This document shows positions 3,588 to 51,760 of a stretch of DNA of 64,000 nt, piece by piece. Origin of the DNA: Branchiostoma floridae (Eukaryota > Chordata > Leptocardii > Amphioxiformes > Branchiostomatidae). How positions within the stretch are numbered: position 1 is the first letter of the stretch; every line of letters starts with the position of its first letter. The notes beneath the pieces were generated by a model that was not told the origin of the DNA, did no database searches, and worked only from the letters and a program-made list of their open reading frames with translations. Made by a program: the position numbers and the translations under genes. The DNA is taken from assembly GCF_000003815.2 (NCBI RefSeq), contig NC_049985.1, forward strand, positions 19,837,893-19,901,892, read 5' to 3'.

Positions 3588-26437
<22,850 letters not shown>

Positions 26438-33495: not shown

Positions 33496-34079
33496 ACTGT
33501 CCAGACTGCTCTTTCTCGACGCTTGCTTGTAGATAAGGAAATAAAATATAATTCATACATTTACTTGTAGTAAGAACTGCTCGCCGTTTAATAGTAAGAA
33601 AAACATAGAGAAAACACCAGTCACTACACAGAACGCATCCTTACCACTACATCCTTATTCTTCAAGCAGAGGTTGAGTCGCGGAGATATTAATAGTAGTA
33701 GTCGGGATTTCTACCGGCTCTTAGCTCGAGGGTCAACTTGCCACAAAGAAAAACTTAGACCCTGGAAGTTCAGAACATATATGCGGTATATTAAAAAGGA
33801 AAGGGTGTCCTCTGTTCGCATAAACTGCACTTCAAAAAATGCCGTATGTTTAGCAGAAAAAGGTAACGTTTCATAAAATCATTGAGACGGTACGTATTTA
33901 TAAGACAATAGATAAAACGGGGGTAGTGACCCCCAGTTTGCTTAAACTGCGTGGATTCAAAGATTAAACACGTCGTATATATATGTGTTCAACAGAAATG
34001 CGCAGCATTTCATATACGTTTGGGCAACATATAAGCTAAACGGGGAGGTCTCCCCTAGTTCGCTTAAACTGCGCGGATT

Positions 34080-34179
34080 NNNNNNNNNNNNNNNNNNNNN
34101 NNNNNNNNNNNNNNNNNNNNNNNNNNNNNNNNNNNNNNNNNNNNNNNNNNNNNNNNNNNNNNNNNNNNNNNNNNNNNNN
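34080..34179. other. Assembly gap
   Basis: 100 N inside the 114-bp satellite array; 100 is a common placeholder length. Confidence 1.
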
Positions 34180-34723
34180 GATTAAACATGTCGTATGTTC
34201 AACAGAAATACGCAGCATTTCATATACGTTTGGGCAACATATAAGCTAAACGGGGAGGTCTCCCCTAGTTCGCTTAAACTGCGCGGATTCAAAGATTAAA
34301 CATGTCGTATGTTCAACAGAAATACGCAGCATTTCATATACGTTTTGGCTACATATAAGCTAAGCGGGGGAGGTCTCCCCTAGTTCGCTTAAACTACGCG
34401 GATTCAAAGATTAAACATTCGTATGTTCAACAGAAATACGCAGCATTTCATATACATTTTGGCAACATATAACCTAAACGGGGAGGTCTCCCCTAGTTCG
34501 CTTAAATTGCGCGGATGCAAAGGTTAAACATGTCGTAAGTTCAACAGAAATACACAGCATTTCAAATACTTTTTGGCAACATATAAGCTAAACGGGGAGG
34601 TCTCCCCTAGTTCGCTTAAACTGCGCGGATTCAAAGATTAAACATGCCGTATGTTCAACAGAAATACGCAGCATTTCATATACGTTTGGGCAACATATAA
34701 GCTAAACGGGGGAGGTCTCCCCT

Positions 34724-34728
34724 AGTTC
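34724..34728. repeat. Left target-site duplication AGTTC
   Basis: Direct repeat flanking the left end of the 15.7-kb element; it pairs with 50445-50449. Confidence 0.7.
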
Positions 34729-35623
34729 GCACCCCATACACATAGCGTTAACAGAAATAACTGTATAACTAAGGTCGGCGTTGGGCAGTCGTTGCTGCGG
34801 TAGGACCTTATCCTTTCATCCTAGGATGAAAGAAGTTAACAGCAGTACTGGTGCCAGGACAACGCTGAACTCGGCGCTTCTATATGAATAACCAGGAGTA
34901 CACTGAGGTCATGCTCCTAGGTCATCTAGAATACAGGTCACCTAATGGACTGTCATGGCCACCATTCGGAAATCGAGCTGTGCCGTCGCGTCGTGGACAT
35001 GCCTAGAAGTTTGCCAACTATGCAGGACCGAAAAACACATGGAAATGTTTGCTGCTACAGTGTGAAGTTCTTCATAGTGTTTGCTTATCATATGGTGGGA
35101 TCGTCAAATAGTAACGGTTTAACGGTTAAATTTTGCTGCTCGAGCGAGCTCGGACAAATTCGCAACATATTGTTTCTCATCATGATCAATAAATAGGTAG
35201 GTATTGTTAAATATTTTCCTTTTTTCAAGGTATTTGGCCATCTTTAAAACGATATTACTTTTCCAGCTGCTTTGTATTGGTTTCAATAATGTGGTGCACG
35301 GCCCGGTGGTAACGTTATATGATTATGAGAGGCATTAAAGGCAACATCAGTATAATCTATAACCTCATAGACTGGTTATTATAAAGGAAGCCTAGTTTAT
35401 ACCTCGGGTTTAGCTAGGCAGTGACTTATGTATGCAATGTAATGTATTTATGGTTTGAAAAGGATAATTTCATTCCCCAGAAAACGTCTAGATCAAAATA
35501 AATGGCAGCGAAATGATATTGAATTCAGGTAATGACAGTGCTCAATGAACTGAATTCACATTTTCCTCAATTTTCATGCCATAAAGCCAGGTAAGATACC
35601 AAACAGCTTATTACGGTAACAGT

Positions 35624-36179
35624 TAGGGGTGGGTACCGGTACAGAAAATTTAATCACATGGCCAATTTACTGCTCTGTCGGCTAAACCCTTCCCCAGCTT
35701 ATAATACTGTCTAATATGCCACACAAGATCTGCTTGGAGCAAGGAGCTCCTTGCTTGGAGATTACAGAAAATTCAGGTCCAGGTTCAGTCCACTGGTCCG
35801 GATCTGAACCTGGACCTAATTATGAATGGTGAATACTCAAAGCAATAGTTAATTTTGCTGAAAAGGAATCTGTTTGGTGGAGTATCCTATCTGCACATAA
35901 ACAATGCTAACTGCCTTAGACCGTCATCACATTTGACTGTAGACACGTGATGAAAATGACTACCAACTCTACTCAGCTCTACGTATACTTTGCTCTTGCT
36001 ATTTTCTTGGACCAATAAGCCTCAAAATGTGTGCGTCTGCCGCCATGGTGCCAGTATAATATGTTCATTTTCCAATCAGTCCAACATCTGGTCTGGTCCA
36101 CTGAATTATTTCAGGTCCGTTTTTTTCTGGACTGGTCCAAAAAGAAAAAAAAACGGTTTTGTACCAGTACCCACCCCTA
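35624..36179. mobile_element. hAT-type MITE, 556 bp, with exact 8-bp target duplication
   Basis: Terminal repeats TAGGGGTGGGTACCGGTAC (left) and GTACCAGTACCCACCCCTA (right). The flanking 8 bp GTAACAGT is identical on both sides (35616-35623 and 36180-36187). Internal CAGGTCCAGGTTCAG-type runs match the copies at 24004 and 48713. It abuts the 51-bp minisatellite. Confidence 0.88.
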
Positions 36180-36212
36180 GTAACAGTTGAAAATAGGTAA
36201 TTGTCTGCATGC

Positions 36213-38675
36213 CAGGGGGTACCGCACAGGTAGCAGTTGGATGGCTTGCTTGTATGGAGACCAGGTAAGGTACCATACAGGTAGCAGTTGGATGGCTTGC
36301 TTGTATGGAGACCAGGTAAGGTACCGTACAGGTAGCAGTTGGATGGCTTGCTTGTATGGAGACCAGGTAAAGCACCGTACAGGTAGCACTTGGATGGCTT
36401 GCTTGTCTGGAGACCAGGTAAGGTACCGCACAGGTAGCAGTTGGATGGCTTGCTTGTCTGGAGACCAGGTAAGGTGCCGTACAGGGAGCAGTTGGATGGC
36501 TTGTTAGTCTGGAGACCAGGTAAGGTACCGCACAGGTACCAGTTGTATGGCTTGCTTGTCTGGAGACCAGGTAAGGTGCCGTACAGGTAGCAGTTGGATG
36601 GCTTGTTAGTCTGGAGACCAGGTAAGGAGCCGTACAGGTAGCAGTTGGATGGCTTGTTAGTCTGGAGACCAGGTAAGGCACCGTACAGGTAGCAGTTGGA
36701 TGGCTTGTTAGTCTGGAGACCAGGTAAGGTACCGCACAGGTACCAGTTGTATGGCTTGCTTGTCTGGAGACCAGGTAAGGTACCGTACAGGTAGCAGTTG
36801 GATGGCTTGCTTGTCTGGAGACCAGGTAAGGTACCGTACAGGTAGCACTTGGATGGCTTGCTTGTATGGAGACCAGGTAAGGTGCCGTACAGGTAGCAGT
36901 TGGATGGCTTACTTGTCTGGAGACCAGGTAAGGTACCGCACAGGTAGCAGTTGGATGGCTTGCTTGTCTGGAGACCAGGTAAGGTACCGCACAGGTAGCA
37001 GTTGGATGGCTTGTTGGTCTGGAGACCAGGTAACGTACCATACAGGTAGCAATTGTATGGCTTGTTAGTCTGGAGACCAGGTAAGGTACCGTACAGGTAG
37101 CAGTTGGATGGCTTACTTGTCTGGAGACCAGGTAAGGTGCCGTACAGGTAGCAGTTGTATGGCTTACTTGTCTGGAGACCAGGTAAGGTACCGTACAGGT
37201 AGCAGTTGGATGGCTTACTTGTCTGGAGACCAGGTAAGGTACCGTACAGGTAGCAGTTGTATGGCTTGTTAGTCTGGAGACCAGGTAAGGTACCATACAG
37301 GTAGCAGTTGCATGGCTTGTTAGTCTGAGACCAGGTAAGGTACCGTACAGGTAGCAGTTGGTTGGCTTACTTGTCTGGAGACCAGGTAAGGTGCCGTACA
37401 GGTAGTAGTTGTATGGCTTGTTAGTCTGGAGACCAGGTAAGGTACCGTACAGGTAGCAGTTGGATGGCTTGTTAGTCTGGAGACCAGGTAAGGCACCGTA
37501 CAGGTAGCAGTTGGATGGCTTGTTAGTCTGGAGACCAGGTAAGGTACCGCACAGGTACCAGTTGTATGGCTTGCTTGTCTGGAGACCAGGTAAGGTACCG
37601 TACAGGTAGCAGTTGGATGGCTTGCTTGTCTGGAGACCAGGTAAGGTGCCGTACAGGTAGCACTTGGATGGCTTGCTTGTATGGAGACCAGGTAAGGTGC
37701 CGTACAGGTAGCAGTTGGATGGCTTACTTGTCTGGAGACCAGGTAAGGTACCGCACAGGTAGCAGTTGGATGGCTTGCTTGTCTGGAGACCAGGTAAGGT
37801 ACCGCACAGGTAGCAGTTGGATGGCTTGTTGGTCTGGAGACCAGGTAACGTACCATACAGGTAGCAATTGTATGGCTTGTTAGTCTGGAGACCAGGTAAG
37901 GTACCGTACAGGTAGCAGTTGGATGGCTTGCTTGTCTGGAGACCAGGTAAGGTACTGTACAGGTAGCAGTTGTATGGCTTACTTGTCTGGAGACAGGGTA
38001 GGTACCGTACAGGTAGCACTTGGATGGCTTGCTTGTATGGAGACCAGGTAAGGTACCGTACAGGTAGCAGTTGGATGGCTTACTTGTTTGGAGACCAGGT
38101 AAGGTACAGCACAGGTAGCACTTGGATGGCTTGCTTGTATGGAGACCAGGTAAAGCACCGTGCAGGTAGCACTTGGATGGCTTGCTTGTATGGAGACCAG
38201 GTAAGGTACCGCACAGGTAGCAGTTGGATGGCTTGCTTGNNNNNNNNNNNNNNNNNNNNNNNNNNNNNNNNNNNNNNNNNNNNNNNNNNNNNNNNNNNNN
38301 NNNNNNNNNNNNNNNNNNNNNNNNNNNNNNNNNNNNNNNNNNNNNNNNNNNNNNNNNNNNNNNNTACAGGTAGCACTTGGATGGCTTGCTTGTCTGGAGA
38401 CCAGGTAAGGTACCGCACAGGTAGCAGTTGGATGGCTTGCTTGTCTGGAGACCAGGTAAGGTGCCGTACAGGGAGCAGTTGGATGGCTTGTTAGTCTGGA
38501 GACCAGGTAAGGTACCGCACAGGTACCAGTTGTATGGCTTGCTTGTCTGGAGACCAGGTAAGGTACCGTACAGGTAGCAGTTGTATGGCTTGTTAGTCTG
38601 GAGACCAGGTAAGGTACCGTACAGGGAGCAGTTGTATGGCTTGTTAGTCTAGAGATTAGGTAATGTATTATACAG
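36213..38675 (+). repeat. 51-bp minisatellite (about 48 units)
   Basis: The unit reads approximately GGTAGCAGTTGGATGGCTTG, CTTGTCTGGAGACCAGG, TAAGGTACCGTACA. At 51 bp (17 codons) it leaves reading frames open, including a 637-codon minus-strand frame at 36106-38019 with 17-residue repeats, which I regard as non-genic. A ~815-bp (16-unit) block is duplicated: 36727-37068 matches 37542-37883. A missing base near 37327 makes it 815 rather than 816. The 38240-38364 gap falls in the array. Confidence 0.92.
38240..38364. other. Assembly gap
   Basis: Run of N inside the 51-bp minisatellite. Confidence 1.
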
Positions 38676-39188
38676 GTACATTTTAGGCCTCAAAAGCTCA
38701 ATTTGACAGCTCTTGGATTAAAAAAATAGCAACATGGTTAGCAAGAAATTGCAAAAACTTGGTGTTAAATAAGTACTAGTACAAAACATAAAGAATAATA
38801 CATTGTCAGCTTGAAAAAAAGCAAGCAAAAGCTACCTCTTCACAGTAGCTGCACCTGTTTGTTGAAAATTATTACAAGTACAGTTTTAATGTATTTAACA
38901 TGTCTTCATGATTGAAATATTTCACTACAAAGACGGATGTGCCAAGTAATGAGCTTATAATTCCCTGTAAGCCAATTTACTATACTGGAAAGTTATTTGT
39001 AATGGTGAAAATATGCTGAATGGCAGGTGTGGTGAATTTTTTCATTTTTGGAAAAATAGGAATGGGCAATAATTCTAATAATCAATTGATTGAATTGGTG
39101 TGACCTTATAAACCTGAGAAAAGGATAAATGCTCCATAGGTGACTGGGTGTTAGAGTTAGATCAAAAGTCACATGTCAGAAGTAGAAC

Positions 39189-39294
39189 TGTGAACATATC
39201 TTTTTTTCCAGGGCATTGATGTCTGTAAACGTGAAATGGCAGAAGTGGAGAAGCTGTTTACACAACAGGAGATGGAGCTCTTCATGCATCCCTG
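39189..39294 (+). CDS. Terminal-exon-like segment of an unidentified gene
   Basis: After a strong acceptor (ATCTTTTTTTCCAG/GGC, exon start about 39211) an open stretch reads GIDVCKREMAEVEKLFTQ, QEMELFMHP and stops at a TGA (39292-39294). The charged, helix-prone composition and good codon usage differ from the AT-rich surroundings. Upstream partners are not clear; an ATG-initiated stretch at 34945 (MDCHGHHSEIELC, then RRVVDMPRSLPTMQD) is a candidate first exon but lacks a good donor. Both lie inside the 15.7-kb inverted-repeat-bounded block, with a minisatellite between them. Start and end coordinates include the acceptor region. I do not recognise the family. Confidence 0.35.
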
Positions 39295-39472
39295 ACATTT
39301 GTCCATAGAATGGTCAAATCACCAGCTTAAGTTGTTAACAACATTGTTGATTGGACAGAAGACTACATATGTATATAGAAAAAGTTGAAGTTGACATGTG
39401 GATTTGTTTCAAAATAGGGTGTCCTGATGATTTGTAAAATCTGTGTGGGGTTGTATAATAATTGGTTCCTTA

Positions 39473-40534
39473 AGCCCCGGTCACAAAGCGCGTACGATTC
39501 CTTGCGATTCCTTCCGATGCGCAGGATAATCGCAGTGCGACATAAGTCGGAAGAAAATCGGAAGCAGTGGTTTAAGTATATAAAGCCGTGGTCACAAAGC
39601 GCGTAGTGCATCGTACGATGAGGTCATAAGAGCGTGCCTGTGTCAATCGCAGTGAATCATAGTAAATCGGGGAGCGTCGTATGGCGAAAAATAGAGCTGA
39701 AATGGATTTTGAACATGTTCAAAATTTCGCTATCGTCGTAAGATTTTATTTGCCCCCATAGCAGAGTGCATGACGGCAATTTTTGTCTACTGATGAGGTT
39801 ATACATTTATGATTTTTTAGCATGTTGTGATGGTTTCAGTTTTCCCTGATATTGTCGATATTGACGAAAAGGGGAAATATATCAGTCGCAACTGCCACAG
39901 TCGCAACCAGAGAACAGCGCGTCACGCACAGGTGATGCAGACAATTGTTTGATCGCTTCATGCACGTGAGTTTATAATTAGATCAAATCTCAGCTCTCGC
40001 CAGTCTTGTGTCAGTTTACCATAATCGTAATAACCATGGGGACAACTCTAACATAAAGGCAGGCTCTATGAGTCGGAAATATATATGATATAATGCTTAT
40101 CATTTGATTTTTGTATGATGGCATCTTTTTGTTGATAGCATATCATGATACGATCTTCGAAAGAGCCTGACACGTAGAGCCGGTAAGCAGGCCGAGATAA
40201 CCATACCAGTACTCACGCTTGATTTGAACTTTTGCTTGTAATACTCTTGTTGTCATGGTCTTTTTTAATTTATTTTTACAGTTAAAGATATTATAGGAAG
40301 GTATTTAACAGCTATGTCCACATTTTGTTGGTTAAAGAAGCACAAAAGCGGTCAGACGGCTATACAGAAGAGACACAAGTGAAAAATCGTGCGACGCTGG
40401 AAAAATTTTGAACACCATCCGATGCGTTGCGATGGCTTGCGATGCTTACGATTTTCTTGCGATGTACTGCGCTCATCGTACGATATGCGGAATAGTCCAT
40501 CGCAAGGAATCGTACGCGCTTTGTGACCGGGGCT
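39473..40534. mobile_element. PIF/Harbinger-like MITE, 1062 bp
   Basis: Terminal inverted repeats AGCCCCGGTCACAAAGCGCG and its complement, extending on through TACGATTCCTTGCGAT. The flanks are TTA at both ends (39470-39472 and 40535-40537), as expected for the 3-bp TWA target duplication of PIF/Harbinger elements. A second, diverged copy of the left end lies inside at about 39588-39625 (AAGCCGTGGTCACAAAGCGC). No transposase. Confidence 0.75.
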
Positions 40535-41750
40535 TTAGATGCCAATTCCATTTGACACCAAGTCATCTGACTCTGAGTGGCACACTCATACAGTTGTGCA
40601 ATAAGCCTCTAAACCTGTATAAAGCTATAATAGTAGTGACATAATGTGTGTTGTATTTAGCACAATATTTTATATTCTTTGATACCAAGTGTAATACTGT
40701 ATGTTAAGTAACATTTGCATATGACCCTGATGGGTAATTAGTGGCTTTGACATGTTCAACTGTTTGTCTAGTTAGCTGTACCTGCATTGAATTGTTCTGC
40801 CAGTTCATTCCAGTGACGCTAAAGAAAAGTGATGGATGTCAAAGGAAACATATATGGAGACTAATCTGTTTTTTACCCAGTTGTATAAACTGATTTGTAT
40901 TTGAAGACTGTAAGTTTCCTTTTCCAATAGGAGTACGATATTTACTGGGATACTGTATATTCATGATAGTTTGATACACCATATTTAGAACACTTATTAA
41001 AACTGAACAGTACCTATTTACTCTTTTGTTTCAAATGTGTTTGATGTGCAGTTTACATAGGGTCATAGGTTCTTTTTTCAATGACCTTGCCCAACAAAGG
41101 TAATATACAGGCTAGAAAATTGATTTTTTAGATTTCAAAGACGTTGACCGGGTTGACCTATCATTGAGTCTTTCCCACCATACCATTCACTGAAATGCAC
41201 ATTTTGATCGCAGAAACATACATTTTAAAGAAATGACCCCACCACCACCAGAAATTCGTTTTTTTTTTCAAGATTTCAAAGACGTTGACGGATTGTACAT
41301 GGCTTGTGGTAAATCCTTTTGAATTAATTTTGAAGTCTGTTCATAACAGGAAGAGGACATATGTAAAACAGCAATTCTACTGAAAACCTTGGAAACTCTT
41401 ATCAGTAGTCAAAATAAGTCACTTCACTTTGTTATACCAGGAACGTGCACAGATCAAGCTGGACCTGATTTTCAGGCAGTCATTGATTTACATATTATCT
41501 AGTCTGACTTAGAATACTTACTCCACATTTTCTAGATTACTGTTTGTAATATGTTCTGCTATGTTCTGTTTTGCTATGAATATCCATCAGTAGTTTATAC
41601 ATTATACACTGAAAAACATTCATTCAACAATCATTTCTATACTTAGCTTTAGAAAACTTATTTCATAATACCATTATTTACAGTATCATGCCCATATATA
41701 GCTACCATGTTAGACAGTGTATGTTGTCCAGGCTTGGAGTGCTTGATAAC

Positions 41751-41913
41751 TTATCTCCAAGCAGATCCTACAGTGGCATTAAGCTAGCCAAGGCCTGTGG
41801 TCAGCCAAGGAGAAAATTGACACCTCAGTGCCGGCTACACCCCTTGGCTACATGTAGCTAATGATACATGTACTACTATTATATTATGACACCGTAGGAT
41901 TTGCTTGAGATAA
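41751..41913. mobile_element. Small MITE, ~163 bp
   Basis: Ends TTATCTCCAAGCAGATCC and GGATTTGCTTGAGATAA form imperfect inverted repeats that continue inward as TACAGTG / CACCGTA. No coding capacity. Confidence 0.65.
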
Positions 41914-41979
41914 CGTGATATCCATGAATGAGAAACTTAGGTAACTTCCTTTTCATCACATCCCTCACATTGATTCTTA

Positions 41980-43760
41980 AGGCCTCTGTGCAAAGCCTTA
42001 TATCTCCTAACAGAATGAAGCGAGAGCAAAGTTAATACCAACACAGATAGATAAGCGTACCAGCCGGCTTTCCTAAAAATTTCACTGAGATATTTCACTC
42101 CTCTCTCATCTTACAGAGAGAAACGCGATTATGTTTGATGCGGTAAAATTTCGCCCGAAATTGTCAAAGGGAACAAGTGCAGTTGACACGCGTCCTCGCT
42201 TTCCGCGAGACCAAAACGTTAAACGTCTTCTACTTTCGCATCTCATCCAAACTACATCAGATTTACTTCAAATTTGGCTGAAATATGCATGAAAGTGTGC
42301 TTAGATGTGATCTGAAACGTCACACGATGTTTGTACTTTGCTATTGAGATACGTGCAGTTGAACTTCTGATAGGAAATCACGCATTTTTGACCTTGCGTC
42401 CAAATAAAAGTTCAAATATCTCCAAAAGTATCATNNNNNNNNNNNNNNNNNNNNNNNNNNNNNNNNNNNNNNNNNNNNNNNNNNNNNNNNNNNNNNNNNN
42501 NNNNNNNNNNNNNNNNNNNNNNNNNNNNNNNNNNNNNNNNNNNNNNNNNNNNNNNNNNNNNNNNNNNNNNNNNNNNNNNNNNNNNNNNNNNNNNNNNNNN
42601 NNNNNNNNNNNNNNNNNNNNNNNNNNNNNNNNNNNNNNNNNNNNNNNNNNNNNNNNNNNNNNNNNNNNNNNNNNNNNNNNNNNNNNNNNNNNNNNNNNNN
42701 NNNNNNNNNNNNNNNNNNNNNNNNNNNNNNNNNNNNNNNNNNNNNNNNGCGGTAAAATTTCGCCCGAAATTGCCCTTGCAACGTATGCAGTTGACAAGCG
42801 GCCTCGATTTCCGCGAGGCCAAAGCGTCTCTTACTTTCGTATCTCATCCAAACTACATCAGATTTACTTCAAATTTGGCTGAAATATGCATGAAAGTGTG
42901 CTTAGATGTGATCTGAAACGTCACACGATGTTTGTACTTTGCTATTGAGATACGTGCAGTTGAACTTCTGATAGGAAATCACGCATTTTTGACCTTGCGT
43001 CCAAATAAAAGTTCAAATATCTCCAAAAGTTTTGGTTAAAAGCACTCAGAAAGAAAGTGGTGGCATCATGAAAGTGTCTTTGACAGACTTATATGAAAAA
43101 CTGCGTCTATTTTACCTTAGATATTTAACCCTACAGGGAGTTTGGTGTAAAACCTACTTTCCGAAGGTGAGCTTTTGAGCGAGGTGAAAATGACAATAGT
43201 TCAAAGCAATATATCTCCCTACAGAATAAAGCAAGAGCTAAGCTATTAACAACACAGGTAGATAATCGTATCAACCCACTTTCCTGAAAATTTCATTGAA
43301 ATATTTCACTCCTATCATGTCTTAGAGAGAAAAACGCATTTACGTATGATGCGGTAAAATTTCGCCCGAAATTGCCCTTGCAAACGTATGCAGTTGACAA
43401 GCGGCCTCGATTTCCGCGAGGCCAAAACGTCTCTTACTTTTGTATCTCTTCCAAACTACGTCAGATTTACTTCAAATTTGGCTGAAATATGCATGAAAGT
43501 GTGCTTAGATGTGATCTGAAACGTCATACGATGTTTGTACTTTGCTATTGAGATACGTGCAGTTGAACTTCTGATAGCAAATCACGCATTATTTACCTTA
43601 CGTGCAAATAAAAGTTCAAATATCTCCAAAACGTTTCAGTGCAAGCAATTAAAAAAGAAAGTGGTGGCATCATGACAGACAGACAGACTTGTATGGAAAT
43701 CTGCGTCTATTTTACGATACATATACCTCTAACCGGACATCATTTGGTGTTTGGTGTCTT
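41980..43760 (+). repeat. ~605-bp tandem repeat (three copies)
   Basis: The block GCGGTAAAATTTCGCCCGAA occurs near 42140, 42749 and 43351, followed each time by CGCTTTCCGCGAGRCC-like sequence, an ATGCATGAAAGTGTGCTTAG stretch and a CTCCAAAAG stretch. The 42435-42748 gap covers part of the second copy. Confidence 0.85.
42435..42748. other. Assembly gap
   Basis: Run of N inside the ~605-bp tandem repeat. Confidence 1.
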
Positions 43761-44206
43761 TTGAGCGGGGTGAAAATAGCATTAGTTCAAACCCTAGTAC
43801 GCTATTCTTTCTAAAACTACAACATATTGGCATCTGTAGACGAAAGGGTATCAAAACTAGCTTTATATATTGACCTACCCGTGCTGTTAACAGGTCCGAT
43901 ATTTCTCCATCCCTACGTACGTAACAATCGATTCATCTAGTACTGTCTTCAAAGGCGCAAAAGTACATGGTATTGTTCGTTTTCAGTACCCTTTAAAGTC
44001 ACATAGACCACGTTTCAATCAACACAGGAACATCATAATTTGAACTAGGATAGCCTATGATATTGTGTAACATAGAATAAAGTCATTTATTAGGCGACCT
44101 ATATATCTTCATTATTTTTTTGTAAAAAACATATTAAGAACTTGTCAGCTGCCCTCTGGCGACATATACCAAAAGTGCAGAATTTGGTCACACACCAGAT
44201 AGAATG

Positions 44207-45013
44207 AACTTTTTTTGGGTTCAAATGACCAAATTTAGCTTTTTTTGACAAAAAGATGGTTTACAAGATTTCAGGAAATTATTCTGCACCCAACAAAGTT
44301 GGTTTGAAGGAAATCGGACACCGTTTGTCGACATCTCATTTTTGGGTTGAAATCTGCTATTTTTGGTTCATAGGGCCAAATTTACATTTTTCGACAAAAA
44401 GAGGGCCTACGTGATGTCAGGAAATTATTCCGCACCCAATAAAGTTGGTTTGAACGAAATCGGACACCGTTTGTCGACATCTCATTTTTGGGTTGAAATC
44501 TGCAATTTTTGGTTCAAAGGGCCAAATTTACATTTTTCGACGAAAAGAGGGCATACGTGATGTCAGGAAATTATTCCGCATCCAACAAAGTTGGTTTGAA
44601 GGAAATCGGACACCGTTTGTCGACATCTCATTTTTGGGTTGAAATCTGCTATTTTTGGTTCATAGGGCCAAATTTACATTTTTCGACAAAAAGAGGGCCT
44701 ACGTGATGTCAGGAAATTATTCCGCACCCAATAAAGTTGGTTTGAACGAAATCGGACACCGTTTGTCGACATCTCATTTTTGGGTTGAAATCTGCAATTT
44801 TTGGTTCAAAGGGCCAAATTTACATTTTTCGACAAAAAGAGGGCATACGTGATGTCAGGAAATTATTCCGCACCCAACAAAGTTGGTTTGAAGGAAATCG
44901 GACACTGTTTGTCGACATCTCATTTTTGGGTTGAAATCTGCTATTTTTGGTTCATAGGGCCAAATTTACATTTTTCGACAAAAAGAGGGCATACGTGATG
45001 TCAGGAAATTATT
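44207..45013 (+). repeat. 146-bp tandem repeat with a 292-bp higher-order unit
   Basis: Five to six units of 146 bp (TTTTTGGGTTGAAATCTGC ... GGCCAAATTTACATTTTTCG ... GTCGACATCTCA). Alternate units are the same: the unit at 44363 matches 44655 and the unit at 44509 matches 44801, differing from their neighbours at CAATTTTTGGTTCAAAG versus CTATTTTTGGTTCATAG. Short open frames in each unit are a by-product. The array ends beside a MITE at 45027. Confidence 0.9.
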
Positions 45014-45026
45014 GATTTACCCTTAA

Positions 45027-45469
45027 GGCCACACCAATTTAATTTCTTGGTTCACGGATTTTTTCATAAAAAATATGGAGCGAAAGGGCGAAATAAAAAT
45101 AAAAATTGTAAAATGTTTGGGGTAAAGGTAAGAGCTAATCCGAAACATAGAGAATAAAAAGTTTTCAGCTTGAAGAAAGTACAAAAACACTATTACTGTA
45201 CAGTAACACCACATGTTCGTTGAAAATTACAAAAGTAGTGTCAGTTTTTATGTTTGTCCCATTCTTAATGAATGAAAAATATAACTGCAATAATAATACC
45301 CACATTTTAAGGAGCTTATAATATAAAGGCCAATTTGCTACACCAGAAAGTTGGTAAATGGTTTCATTAATGGTGAAAATTTGCTGAGTGGCAATTTTTA
45401 TTTTTATTGTTTTTTCCAAAAAAAAGGAGCGAGCGAATCCGTGAACCAAGAAATTAAATTGGTGTGGCC
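45027..45469. mobile_element. PIF/Harbinger-like MITE, 443 bp
   Basis: Near-perfect terminal inverted repeats of about 38 bp starting GGCCACACCAATTTAATTTC, and TAA flanking both sides (45024-45026, 45470-45472). Internal sequence is AT-rich with no coding capacity. Confidence 0.85.
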
Positions 45470-46690
45470 TAACTCAAAAATATTGATGATGGCTATTTAC
45501 CTGCCTTAAAAAGTATGGACTTCAGAAGAAAATTTTTCCCAGGGACCATTGTTTATTTCTGATGACTTGACTGCAGCAAAATAAAGCTTGACAAAAAGGA
45601 TCTAAGTAAATAACTGTCTACCTGGAAAATAGAGGTCAACTTGTTCATACCTTTATATACAATGCACAACTGCATGTGGTCCTGTGTTTGCACTTATTTT
45701 TGTATATGCATGCAAATAAGGAAAACTCATGAATTACCATTATGTATCGTACATAGGGTGAAAGCTCTACACTTAAAGCATGAAATGTACTGTGTTTTTA
45801 AAATCATTTCATCAGGAATAGCTCAACATTATATACCTTAACATTTCCTGGAGAGCATCTTAAACAGACAATTAATCCACCCCTCTCCATATAGCTACCT
45901 GTTCAATGAAACTTTGATAAAACACAGAATTTGAACATTTAAGAAAATGCTCTGCTTCCTTGGTCAATCAGTCATGCCTCAGGGACTTACAGTTACTGAC
46001 AGCATACATATACTGAGGTATATAATTGCAAGCTATTTGTAAATATGGATATGCAAAATGGTTCCTCACAACATTGCATCTAGGATACTGCATGCTACAT
46101 ATTAGCTTTAACATATGACATCTACAGTCCAGAGAGCTATGATTTCAAAGCATCTAAATCTGAGTCATTGTAATTGTCATAGTAACACAGTGCATTGCAA
46201 AAAGCATGCTTCTACTAGCTGTTTATCTTTTTACAAAGAAATTGGGACTTCGTTAATGTTCATTATAACTCTCCCATTTGCATGTTGTAGAAGCAGGTAA
46301 TCCATTGCATAATCAGCTTCTCATCTGCTGTCATCTCATGTGCACTGATGGCCTGCCTGGGTTGAGTGTCATCAGCACCTATAGCAACAACATTACAAAT
46401 TAAAATATTTCAGTGTTGTAATGGACATGATTCTGGTGAAGGTTGCATTAGCAATGTCACTGTATAGCCTTGTTGTCAGTGCCTATTGAAATACATCTGA
46501 TAGCAAGGAAGTATCGTGTCCTGTGATCTTATGACAACAAATAAAGACCTAATGAAATACAGGGAGTATTGTCAAAATACAAACACACTCTCTAAACACA
46601 CACAAACACACTGTACACACAAACACACTGTACACACAAATACACACACACTGTACACACAAAAACACACTCACATATATACATATAGGA
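45470..46690. other. Stretch without a recognised gene
   Basis: AT-rich DNA inside the 15.7-kb element. A CA-rich run at about 46590-46670 includes three spaced CACTGTACACACAAA units. Confidence 0.5.
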
Positions 46691-46808
46691 TACAACATGG
46701 TGTATTCCTTATCGCCTGAGGCACCTGTTCAACTGTGGTTAGGCTGGAGGGTGATCCCACCCACATGAGGGCTGGGACCAAGGGTGATACAGAATACAGC
46801 ATGTTGTA
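46691..46808. mobile_element. Short inverted-repeat element, diverged copy
   Basis: Ends TACAACATGGTGTATTC and GAATACAGCATGTTGTA, matching the 48776-48897 element in ends and length, with a different interior. Confidence 0.7.
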
Positions 46809-46982
46809 AACAGTATTTTACTTTATCTATGTCATACCCACCCAAGAAAAACATTTGTTTCAATGCAAAATGCAGAATTTGAGAAAATTTGGCGTCCTCA
46901 ACGGAAAAATTGTAACAACAGCAATTCTAATGTTTGAATCTCAGTACACATGAAGCATGTTTGAATGATCCTATAGTACTAC

Positions 46983-47017
46983 TACATGGGGTTCTACTAT
47001 TAGTAGAACCCCATGTA
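46983..47017. repeat. Perfect 17-bp inverted repeat with 1-base loop
   Basis: TACATGGGGTTCTACTA, T, TAGTAGAACCCCATGTA. As DNA this would form a cruciform; as RNA, a very stable hairpin. It lies inside the 15.7-kb element. Confidence 0.9.
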
Positions 47018-48180
47018 ATAAGCCAAGTTATCAACCGGTTCCTGAACACTTGTATTGAACACTACCTTGTATCATGGCCTAAGTATGACATACAAATGTA
47101 AATGTTGAGACACACACACACATACTCATATTCACAAAAAGGCATACACACACATCCACACTCACATACACATTCACACTCATAATGCAACATGTAAACA
47201 AAAACATGCATTGATTTCTTTTCTAACAAAAGGGCTTAAAATATCCATAATATGAGGATAATATAGCAATGTGTATTTTGATCTGCTCTGCTTGGTTAAG
47301 TATATTGGTACCTATAGTAGTGAGTTTATCGCTGTCAAAATAACCGAGATTGGTGCTACCACCCCCTTCGTATTAGAAAAAAAAGACTTATCTAAGACAC
47401 AAATTGTTTCATTATTAAGTTGTAAATGCTTTTAAGTTTGCGGGAATTTAATTTTGCGGTAGCGGGAAAAAGGACTGTTCGCGGTGGTTTTAAGTTTGTA
47501 GTAGCACTATGCACTGTAGTCTCTAACTGCCATGGAAAAATGTTTGTGATGGTTTTAAGTTCCCGGTGAATGAAAAAAATTCCTCATTTACAGTTAGCAT
47601 GTTAACTCAATATTGATAATCAAAATCATTGTTTTATTTGCAAAGTCATGCCCAAAGCTAATGGCATACACAGTGAAAAAGTATGAGTAATTTAAGAATG
47701 GAGTACATAACACCAATGTCTTAATATAAAATCAATTATAAAATATAAGGCACTACATTTGATGTTGTGGGGGTTGAATTCTCGTTGAAGGCAATGGTTA
47801 TGAACTGTCTTCCGTACTGAATTATGAGTGAGTAGATAAAAATCAATGACAAATATAAATAAATAAAGAAAATATGGTGAATGTTTGAAAATTTGCTCTT
47901 TAAAATTTCTGGAAAAAGGTATTAGCCTGTTAGTGTTACTGCTACTGCTAGAGTCCTTCTAATAATGAATATACTATATAGTACACCAGCTGCAATGCAT
48001 TATTACACTGAAGGACTAGTCTAGTATTATACTCTGGATGAGAAACAGGCATACGCTAGGTACTCATTTCCACCTAAGTGAGTTTTGGGTTATAAGCCAA
48101 AGGGGTGACTCCACTTTTTAAACAAAAGTTACCATGATGTATCATGCTCAATTTTCTGAATATCAGGGATTCAATTTAAA

Positions 48181-48637
48181 AAATAATTGTTATTGTTATT
48201 GGGTGGGCCGACTACTCACTCTTTGCAGCCAGGGGCTGAATTGCGAGGAGCTTACAATAGGCAGGGCTAGATTGCAAGGCTCTGGAGCGAGCTGCCATTC
48301 GGCGCCACTCAGGTGATCTCAATACCACAGTAATTGTCCCAGGTGCGGCCAAGGTCCTGTAGGATTTGGACCACTCACACCGCACCATCGCACATGTTGC
48401 GGGTTCTTTAACGTGCCTGGGGTATGGCTCTCCCCAGACACGGGACCTCCATTTAACATCCTATCCGAGGGAGGGCCCTAGCTGAAGCTAGCTACTTATT
48501 TTCACCTGAGTAAAGTGGGGAAAGTCGTGTAAAGTGCCTTTCCCAAGGGCACAAGATCGGTGGCACGACATGCCGGAATTGAACCCGCAACCTCTCGGTG
48601 CAGATCCGGAAATGCTCCACTGCGCCACGCGGTCCCA
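48181..48637 (-). mobile_element. tRNA-derived SINE, near full length (minus strand)
   Basis: On the minus strand it begins GGGACCGCGTGGCGCAGTGG (A box), then GGTTGCGGGTTCAATTCCGG (B box), then the core CCCTTGGGAAAGGCACTTTA. It ends with an AATAAC-type tail at 48181-48200. The sequence ACAGTCTATTACT occurs twice just beyond its head (about 48639 and 48665). Related pieces lie at 4750, 24955 and 28270. Confidence 0.75.
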
Positions 48638-48712
48638 CACAGTCTATTACTAATTACTAATTTACAGTCTATTACTGGATCGGCAAGAATTTCTTACGAG
48701 TACGGCATGAAC

Positions 48713-48775
48713 TAAGGGTGGGTACCGGTACAGAAAATTCAGGACTGTCCAGGTCCAGTTCAGGTCCAGATAAAA
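48713..48775 (+). mobile_element. Truncated left end of the same hAT-type MITE
   Basis: TAAGGGTGGGTACCGGTAC followed by CAGGTCCAGTTCAGGTCC is the left end of the 24004 / 35624 family. It is cut off at 48776 by another inverted-repeat element. Confidence 0.75.
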
Positions 48776-48897
48776 TACAACACGGTGTATTCACCCTCGG
48801 TCCAAGCCCTCCCACAGATCGGATCGCCCGACGGTCGAAGGCGTCGGGCGATCCAACCCGCGGGTACCTTGGTTGATACGGAATACACCGTGTTGTA
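48776..48897. mobile_element. Short inverted-repeat element (TACAACACGGTGTATTC ends)
   Basis: 122 bp with ends TACAACACGGTGTATTC and GAATACACCGTGTTGTA, a perfect inverted pair. Inside is another perfect 13-bp inverted repeat, GGATCGCCCGACG / CGTCGGGCGATCC (48821-48833 and 48842-48854). The same family occurs at 46691-46808. Confidence 0.8.
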
Positions 48898-49899
48898 TTC
48901 TAATATTCTATTATATATATCCCACAATCAAACACCAAACAGCCCAAACATCACAGCAGAGCATCCAGTTGTGTCACTGTTGACGTGCCTTTTTTTACCT
49001 CCTTGATTTTACCAATTGAGATACTAAAGTGAGTCTCCAAGCAGACATATTGCTGGATGAAAAAGAGAAAGACTTACTAGCCAGATAGGGATAAATACTA
49101 GTAAGTTGCCATGGCATTTCAGTCAGTAATGTGCAATCTACCCAGCTATCACAGTCACAAGCTCAGTACACCTTTAGCCACCTGACTCCTATTTGTTCAA
49201 TATCTACAGTTTTTCCAGCGACCTCTGGAGTCTGTTAGAGACTAATACTTAGTACTACTCATACTATTATGTATCACGGTACAAGCAACGTTACACTGTA
49301 TAATTTTAAAATTATTATAGTGACCGCTGTCAGTATATCCAAGGAGGTAATAGTATATCCTGTACCCTGAAGGCTTACAAATTGTCCTTGTAACCTCGGA
49401 TTTTCAAAACAAATGCAAGTACCATTGTCATGAGAAAACTGGGCCCTAGAACCTATCATGTAACGTTATAATGTACCTGCAACAGTAGAAAATTATTAAT
49501 TACGTGGAAACAAGGTGGAAATTTTCAAGGAGGTCGGAGAGACCTCCGGGGTGAAAAATTATTCTACCTGTTTGGAATGGATTATGATTTTTCTATGGGT
49601 CATTCATAATCATGAGATACAAAAACGATACCTTGATGTATTAGACCTACCTGTAGATTGGGTTACGTGGAATAAATACGTCCAGTAAGGCACATTTCCA
49701 GGCGTGTACGTGTATAATGGTCAGACATCGAAGTTAGGGCTGCCCATTGACAAGCATGTTGAAATACACTGAATGAAGGCTTCAAAAAAGTACTAACCCA
49801 TAGTTCAATCTTTAAAATTCTTCTCCACCAGAAAGTCACTTGGGTCTAGTTTATAAGCATTCAAAGAAAACAGAGGGTTGTTTGGCTCATTCTCGGAGA

Positions 49900-50190
49900 A
49901 AAGCTCGCTCTATGAAAGAAACCTCACCTTTGACCCATTTTCCCTCCTGATACAACCGGTAGCACCCTATAACTAAAACCTGTCCTTACACCAGCTGAAC
50001 TGCTGAACTGAACAAATTTTGACCCAAACAGGAAAGCTTAGACCCTACCTGTCTCTTCTAACTCAAAAAGTCTCCAGATTGGGCAAAAATTTTCAAGGAA
50101 AAGAAGGATTTTCAAGGATTTTAAGTCACACCCAAATCGTCTTCCCATTTTTTGCCCTCTACCGCGCAACGCAACTCTGACGTCAGCCCT
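49900..50190 (+). repeat. Interspersed repeat shared with 10330-10625
   Basis: CACCTTTGACCC, GAAAGCTTAGACCCTACCTG and GCAACGCAACTCTGACGTC in the order of the 10-kb copy. It lies just inside the right end of the 15.7-kb element. Confidence 0.6.
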
Positions 50191-50444
50191 AATCTCGGCC
50201 CATTCGATAATCTGTGGAGGGCGCCATCTTGGATTAGCCTTCAGTCATTCCCATGACGCACCGCGCCTGTCCGCTCCGCGTTCATCACTGCAGGCCGTAC
50301 GTGCTTGGCGTTGTCCTCGACACAGCACTGCTGATAACGCAGGCTATCCTAGGATGAAAGGATAAGGTCCTACCGCAGCAACGACTGCCCAACGCCGACC
50401 TTAGTTATACAGTTATTTCTGTTAACGCTATGTGTATGGGGTGC

Positions 50445-50449
50445 AGTTC
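50445..50449. repeat. Right target-site duplication AGTTC
   Basis: Direct repeat flanking the right end of the 15.7-kb element; it pairs with 34724-34728. Confidence 0.7.
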
Positions 50450-51760
50450 GCTTAAACTGCGAGGATTCAAAAATTAAACATGTCGTATGTTCAACACAAA
50501 TACGCAGCATTTCATACACGTTTTGGCTACATATAAGCTAAGCGGGGGAGGTCTCCCCTAGTTCGCTTAAACTGCGCGGATTCAAAGGTTAAACATTCGT
50601 ATGTTCAACAGAAATACGCAGCATTTCATATACGTTTGGGCAACATATAAGCTAAACGGGGAGGTCTCCCCTAGTTCGCTTAAACTGCGCGAATTCAAAG
50701 ATTAAACATGTCGTATGTTCAACAGAAATAAGCAGTTATTTCATATACGTTTGGGCAACATATAAGCTAAACGGGGGAGGTCTCCCCTAGTTCACTTAAA
50801 TTGCGCGGATGCAAAGGTTAAACATGTCGTATGTTTTACAGAAATGCCTAGCATTTCATATACGTTTTGGCAACATATAAGCTAAACGGGGGGGAGGTCT
50901 CCCCTAATTCGCTTAAATTGCGCGGATGCAAAGGTTAAACATGTCGTATGTGTAACAGAAATACGCAGCATTTCATATACATTTTGGCAACATATAACCT
51001 AAACGGGCAGTCTCCCCTAGTTCGCTTAAATTGCGCGGATGCAAAGGTTAAACATGTCGTATGTTCAACAGAAATACACAGCATTTCAAATACTTTTTGG
51101 CAACATATAAGCTAAACGGGGAGGTCTCCCCTAGTTCGCTTAAACTGCGCGGATTCAAAGATTAAACATGCCGTATGTTCAACAGAAATACGCAGCATTT
51201 CATATACGTTTGGGCAACATATAAGCTAAACGGGGGAGGTCTCCCCTAGTTCGCTTAAACTGCGCGAATTCAAAGATTAAACATGTCATATGTTCAACAG
51301 AAATACGCAGCATTTCATATACGTTTGGGCAACATATAAGCTAAACGGGGGAGGTCTCCCCTAGTTCGCTTAAATTGCGCGGATGCAAAGGTTAAACATG
51401 TCGTATGTTCAACAGAAATACACAGCATTTCAAAGACTTTTTGGCAACATATAAGCTAAACAGGGAGGTCTCCCCTAGTTCGCTTAAACTGCGCGGATTC
51501 AAAAATTAAACATGTCGTATGTTCAACAGAAATACGCAGCATTTCATATACGTTTTAATTTTCAATTGGGCAACATATAAGCTTAACGGGGGAGGTCTCC
51601 CCTAGTTCGCTTAAACTGCGCGGATTCAAAGGTTAAACATGTCGTATGTTTTACAGAAATACCTAGCATTACATATACGTTTTGGCATCATATAAGCCAA
51701 ACGGGGGAGGTTTCCCCTTCTTTGCGTAAACGGCTGTTCGAAATAGATTATACATGCCGT
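50445..51760 (+). repeat. Satellite array, right part (~114-bp unit)
   Basis: About eleven units of the same ~114-bp repeat, in the same orientation as 33815-34728. A three-unit block at about 50965-51250 closely matches 34440-34728, including the variants ATGCAAAGG, CAAATACTTTTTGG and CATGCCGTATG, which shows higher-order repetition. The last units degrade after 51700. Confidence 0.85.

Follow-up and report, generated by a model that had tools for sequence, protein, structure and literature searches.

A 15,714-bp block lodged in satellite DNA of the amphioxus Branchiostoma floridae is a real DNA transposon, recently mobile, without a recognisable gene and one of a multi-copy family of comparable giants, and we consider it a giant non-autonomous cut-and-paste element of the Kyakuja-Dileera-Zisupton (KDZ) group that is mobilised in trans (probability about 0.85). 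Judging by sequence, the mover is probably the transposase of rare, larger KDZ relatives. The block occupies positions 34730-50443 of a 64,000-nucleotide stretch of contig NC_049985.1 (hereafter the window); a preliminary description of the window, made from its letters, had left the superfamily unnamed, and KDZ is the most likely name for it. Non-autonomous DNA transposons are usually small, and a KDZ gene that is very rare (8 loci) beside gene-free elements that seem to have moved recently makes trans-mobilisation of such long DNA testable, and offers a concrete origin for structural variation in amphioxus.

Insertion into a satellite array

An inverted pair at 34729-34827 and 50346-50444, 99 bp long, 100% complementary and 15.5 kb apart, marks the two ends, just as the preliminary description had it. 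The terminal inverted repeats (TIRs) of the element proper are 98 bp long and perfect, with ends CACCCC...GGGGTG: the left TIR (34730-34827, plus strand) starts CACCCCATACACATAGCGTT, and the right TIR (50346-50443, minus strand) is the same. Both flanks consist of one ~115-bp satellite, which forms a left array at 33813-34722 (units of 113-122 bp) and a right array at 50451-51718. Unlike ordinary loci, such an array is an internal empty-site control. With the element taken out and a single AGTTC left in place, the unit formed at the junction measured exactly 115 bp. Fourteen of the 15 other gap-free satellite units were 85-97% identical to it, the remaining one being the divergent first unit at 33813 (63%). 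This bears out the earlier proposals that removal restores a satellite unit and that the element arrived by transposition, its empty site being clean. An assembly artefact or a chance inverted repeat is hardly credible: N gaps do lie inside the element (38240-38364 and 42435-42748) and 550 bp to its left (34080-34179), and N runs occur in some other copies too, but both junctions between element and satellite are free of N, and 20 other pairs have like ends, 11 of them with exact 7-bp duplications.

Two families with common termini and 7-bp duplications

According to the preliminary description, a terminus occurring only here would have spoken against a transposon. No further copies of the terminus were found in the window, and the window's own assembly (513,431,437 bases in 431 contigs, match counts being lower bounds) held 29 matches to the 99-bp terminus, 20 of which form 10 inward-facing pairs spanning 0.16-21 kb, with 9 unpaired. 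Besides the window copy (15.7 kb), the pairs of this family (family 1) lie on C6 (12.6 kb), C1 (15.1 kb), C4 (15.7 kb), C10 (16.6 kb), C14 (17.3 and 14.3 kb), C19 (19.4 kb), C226 (21.0 kb, ~8 kb of it N) and C5, the smallest, a 0.16-kb hairpin. A looser pattern search of the genome turned up a sister terminus, CACCCCATACAAGTACCG, whose 137-bp end had 36 genome matches; 22 of these make up 11 pairs, whose sizes are 7.8, 10.0, 11.9, 12.9, 13.0, 13.1, 13.2, 13.3, 13.6, 14.2 and 35.1 kb. The termini of these elements follow CACCCCATACA, and the two families have the first 11 of 11 terminal bases in common, plus the motif CACCCCATACANNTANCGTT. This motif had 57 exact matches in the genome, of which 56 belong to termini of either family; the other, at C19:9536463, continues differently. 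Because they agree in duplication length and in terminal positions 1-11, the Repbase rule for non-autonomous elements (stated in passages of PMC4455052) places both families in one superfamily.

Exact 7-bp duplications stood flush with CACCCC...GGGGTG at 11 of 21 pairs, where chance would give a flush exact 7-mer at ~6e-5 per pair; they were ATAGGGG, AGGTAAC, TAATGAC and GATCTAA in family 1, and CTGTCGC, AGACACT, CGCTAGC, CGCCATG, TCGATGA, ACCCTAT and GATGCAT in the remaining cases. An exact 8-bp duplication was present at none of the 21. At C6 and C19 a 7-mer was repeated, yet four additional bases stood at the left end (GGTG and CACG, respectively). Matches at 6 of 7 positions were seen for the window copy and the C5 hairpin, the right copy starting with C in both, and weaker ones at C9 (5 of 7) and sister pair C18 (5 bases in common). 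Since 11 of the 21 pairs have an exact 7-bp duplication abutting CACCCC...GGGGTG, the window duplication reads best as 7 bp with one base changed, namely TAGTTCG at 34723-34729, in register with the satellite, and CAGTTCG at 50444-50450, which departs from both the left copy and the satellite in its first base. In this 7-bp frame, the G preceding and the C following CACCCC...GGGGTG belong to the target copies. The preliminary description had instead proposed a 5-bp duplication, AGTTC, and termini starting GCAC; we rejected this because G precedes CACCCC in just two of the 11 exact cases (C4 and C12), and T stands at this position in C11, a close sibling. The C5 hairpin (C5:20532287-20532448) is a 162-bp palindromic miniature in which two termini stand face to face.

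Transib and ProtoRAG elements make 5-bp duplications, and Polintons make 6-bp duplications and carry integrase and polymerase genes. Transib/ProtoRAG was set aside on the length of the duplication, 7 bp here, with sister pair C18 alone sharing just 5 bases. Other candidates were dropped on their ends: Dada families with defined ends are described as lacking TIRs in the cited part of PMC3706591, and Ginger1 and IS481EU have TGT ends in passages of PMC2836005 and PMC10045372.

KDZ transposase domains in rare relatives

No transposase emerged from six-frame Pfam scans (stops written as X) of the window copy, where they covered all but the minisatellite at 36218-38678 and the N gap at 42435-42748, or from those of copy C19 and sister copy C5a; the preliminary description had likewise seen none. 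Exclusion of Transib/ProtoRAG and Polintons, also part of that description, agrees with these scans and with the duplication length. A Polinton/Maverick or other virus-like element would suit the size range of 13-21 kb and otherwise merits almost no credence: the duplications are 7 bp and not 6 bp, the six-frame scans, which took in C19 and sister C5a besides the window copy, showed no integrase or polymerase domain, and the sole match with a viral name, CoV_E, scored 11.2 bits against a cut-off of 32. A scan of IMG/VR with a 26-base terminus gave no matches.

The preliminary description had looked to full-length relatives for a transposase, and it is in relatives only that the KDZ domain was found, namely in a 35-kb sister element on C10 and in a family-1 copy on C300. 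Genome-wide, PF18758 matched 12 times, each time above the cut-off; the matches fall at 8 loci, and the 14 control genomes gave none. The match at C10:1741326-1742897 sits between the ends of the paired 35.1-kb sister element C10:1733475-1768566, which has the exact duplication CGCTAGC. On C300, a family-1 terminus (C300:17503-17600) is 96% identical to the window terminus, with an interior that diverges after 144 bp, and the minus strand of the stretch 1.4-9.4 kb inside it, the strand scanned for domains, gave KDZ PF18758 (39.8 bits, cut-off 26.6), CxC1 PF18802 (31.9 bits, cut-off 26.9) and CxC2 PF18803 (28.5 bits, cut-off 27). The CxC1 and CxC2 matches lie at 2169-2345 of this stretch, and the CxC cluster was seen in the C300 copy only. 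The KDZ layout is alike in both relatives, with the piece from position 51 first and the piece from about position 162 second, running inward: pieces 51-110 and 162-213 lie ~1.2 kb apart and 7.9-9.4 kb from the terminus in C10, and pieces 51-103 and 163-215 ~1.5 kb apart and 9.0-10.7 kb from it in C300. The chance of finding at least two of the eight KDZ loci in such intervals (every paired element, and 20 kb inward from each end that has no partner) is ~6e-5.

Two other superfamilies were weighed against these results. A non-autonomous member of the P superfamily, of the Galileo/1360 branch, is improbable. Galileo has mostly 7-bp duplications and long TIRs, and tandem repeats occur inside some copies of this branch (passages of PMC4168063), all features found here, but no P transposase appeared in the scans of the window, C19, C5a and the C300 minus strand (no genome-wide P search was made), and a KDZ domain lies within a paired 35-kb element. 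Nor was there a palindromic target motif like that of published P-group sites: 10 of the 15 sites finally given a 7-mer yielded 15 matches, compared with 17.2 in shuffles (P=0.77). We give as little weight to a non-autonomous hAT element of hAT5/hAT7 type or a MuDR-like element. Duplications of 5 and 7 bp are reported for hAT groups in part of PMC12730594; the 11 exact 7-bp cases speak against a 5-bp reading, the scans of the window, C19, C5a and C300 gave no hAT or MULE domain (no genome-wide search was made), and the KDZ domain is co-located with the termini.

In the KDZ reading, a transposase from the rare coding relatives would recognise the terminal repeats (core CACCCCATACANNTANCGTT), excise the gene-free element and reinsert it through joins staggered by 7 bp, and gap repair would then produce the 7-bp duplication. 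The window copy would have entered a satellite unit in this manner, with one duplicated base changing afterwards.

Several observations weigh against this assignment. Ten of the 21 pairs are without an exact flush 7-mer, the window copy itself matching at 6 of 7 positions, and at four (C1, C14:6543115, C8 and C204) the duplication is absent. No KDZ remnant was visible in the six-frame scan of the window copy. Six of the eight KDZ loci (on C15, C11, C6 twice, C19 and C14) are not near an exact terminal core, and no second terminus of the C300 copy appeared in the sequence read, which excluded C300:1-8199. The 35-kb C10 element is known from its ends and domain matches alone, and a separate KDZ element may be nested in it. 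Stops interrupt some KDZ stretches in the six-frame translation (one in C10, two in C300), and these could reflect introns or decay. Among the named groups, Kyakuja of Laccaria, a fungal element, is like the amphioxus elements in its KDZ transposase, 7-bp duplications and CA..TG termini, but is described in the cited passages as lacking TIRs, whereas the amphioxus elements have TIRs of 98-137 bp (PMC12730594). Zisupton, known from fish, fungi and nematodes, resembles them in its KDZ transposase, its TIRs and perhaps a gene in pieces, but Zisupton and a Dileera family have 8-bp duplications in the same source, not 7-bp ones (PMC12730594, PMC9297572).

Comparison with described KDZ elements

Zisupton genes are multi-exonic, with 18 and 31 exons in Pristionchus, and BLASTP matches included lancelet (B. 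floridae) homologues (passages of PMC9297572). The closest likeness in kind is to the giant KDZ elements of algae. In Ectocarpus these reach 30.3 kb, contain nested insertions that were kept through later transposition, and often have a pseudogenised transposase gene, and in Chlamydomonas a 31.7-kb KDZ element moved (passages of PMC12477816). Membership of the KDZ group and a length above 10 kb, up to 30-32 kb, are common ground (PMC12477816), but the amphioxus host is a chordate, no transposase was recognisable in the scanned copies, which measure 7.8-19 kb, and the KDZ gene is located in rare relatives. The element, most likely of KDZ type, is known in kind and appears new in its host, in its gene-free state at such size, and in its combination of a 7-bp duplication with long TIRs; the cited passages describe this combination for none of the named KDZ groups. 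This suggests that duplication length (7 or 8 bp) and the presence of TIRs do not sort together among KDZ elements. Literature searches, with Repbase itself outside their reach, found no published description of the amphioxus family.

Interior and recent movement

The interior is common to the copies: a 51-bp minisatellite (36218-38678; ~46 units listed, with the N gap 38240-38364) aligns in 8 of the 9 others, and a 146-bp tandem array (44213-45013, 5.5 units) in all 9, the array being present in sister copy C5b too at ~71%. In the truncated copy C11 (10 kb examined) the minisatellite did not align, and the alignment stops in the 146-bp array. An imperfect tandem repeat of ~600 bp spans 41988-43791, including the N gap at 42435-42748, and two short parts of it, 71 and 176 bp long, match C5b at 68-72%. 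Beside the 146-bp array lies a nested element resembling a miniature inverted-repeat transposable element, with perfect 35-bp inverted ends (45026-45470); a match resembling its end occurs elsewhere in the window, at 1073-1111.

Sampled interior blocks were 98.4-99.8% identical between the window copy and C6 (five blocks where C6 was comparable) and 99.1-99.5% between the window copy and C11 (two blocks). In blocks B, C, E and F the copies C4, C19, C226 and C10 were mutually 98.8-100% identical; in block D the figure was 88-96%, except for C19 and C226, at 99.6%. Heterozygosity in sequenced amphioxus species is 3.2-4.2% (part of PMC12500494), which means that copies at separate loci can differ less than alleles do. 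Because copies at separate loci are up to 99-100% identical in the sampled blocks, movement of the gene-free 8-21 kb elements seems to have been recent and repeated. Identity between left and right TIRs was considered as an age clock and rejected, because different copies share ends (the first 98 bases are the same at the right ends of C4, C19 and C10 and the left end of C226) while left and right are unequal within most copies.

Three non-coding islands (46289-46449, 40919-41119 and 45609-45759) are almost identical between two subfamilies, for which the median identity of compared segments is 87%. Their conservation could reflect selection, gene conversion or a cis-acting site. Tentatively, a broader arrangement may be imagined, which we think doubtful: a two-part chordate system in which rare ~35-kb KDZ elements would supply the transposase for a larger population of 8-21 kb elements that lack genes and would travel in trans. 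The latter have tandem arrays and near-invariant non-coding islands in common, and selection would act to retain this interior, perhaps for its part in transposition, replication or escape from silencing.

Candidate genes in the gene-free copies

The near-invariant block 46289-46449 resembled a minus-strand exon, and a multi-exon gene in the window copy was considered and not sustained. An excess of third-position changes was seen in only 2 of 183 comparable open reading frames (ORFs) of at least 30 amino acids (minisatellite excluded), and copy C1 has a 2-bp deletion within the block; for these reasons no gene is claimed there. In a long-ORF screen of other copies the largest ORFs were minisatellite frames, and the long ORFs of the minisatellite are repeat artefacts because 51 is divisible by 3. 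Ten further open frames from other copies (121-166 aa) had no Pfam match over the cut-off. Matches below the cut-off were not used: SMEK_N, CoV_E and Csd3_N in the window; Tox-MPTase3, DUF7077, DUF3974, DNA_ligase_ZBD and PhaC_N in C19; MORN_DRC7, RepB-RCR_reg and DUF433 in the C5a stretch; ZZ_ADA2 in the C300 stretch; and DUF809 in one C14 frame. DUF7694 (59.5 bits, over the cut-off with no single stretch passing) and YibY in C19 came from minisatellite frames and were discarded, as was RVT_1 in the C5a stretch (34.6 bits, over the cut-off), which lies at positions 17-289, in the flank of an element that starts at 301. No TET/JBP domain came up in these domain scans, and the window contained no RNA families at gathering score and no tRNAs.

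Related ends and additional features

C300 carries two family-1 ends in the same orientation (C300:17503-17600 and 23634-23731), 6.1 kb apart on a 24.7-kb contig. Its copy also has a basic 255-aa open frame that contains a CKQC motif and lies on the other strand from the KDZ pieces (stretch positions 7495-8001 and onward past the stretch end), and this frame is a possible second gene. A dispersed repeat starting CACCACATACACGTAACGTT, one mismatch from the terminal core, has 29 listed places (for example C1:15517882, C7:12235071, and C153:2451 and 8532), and the list shows no obvious inward-facing pair of plausible size. Another related end, CACCCCATACAACTACCGGT, occurs at three places, C8:3301561 (minus strand), C8:3315388 (plus strand) and C8:1903818 (minus strand).

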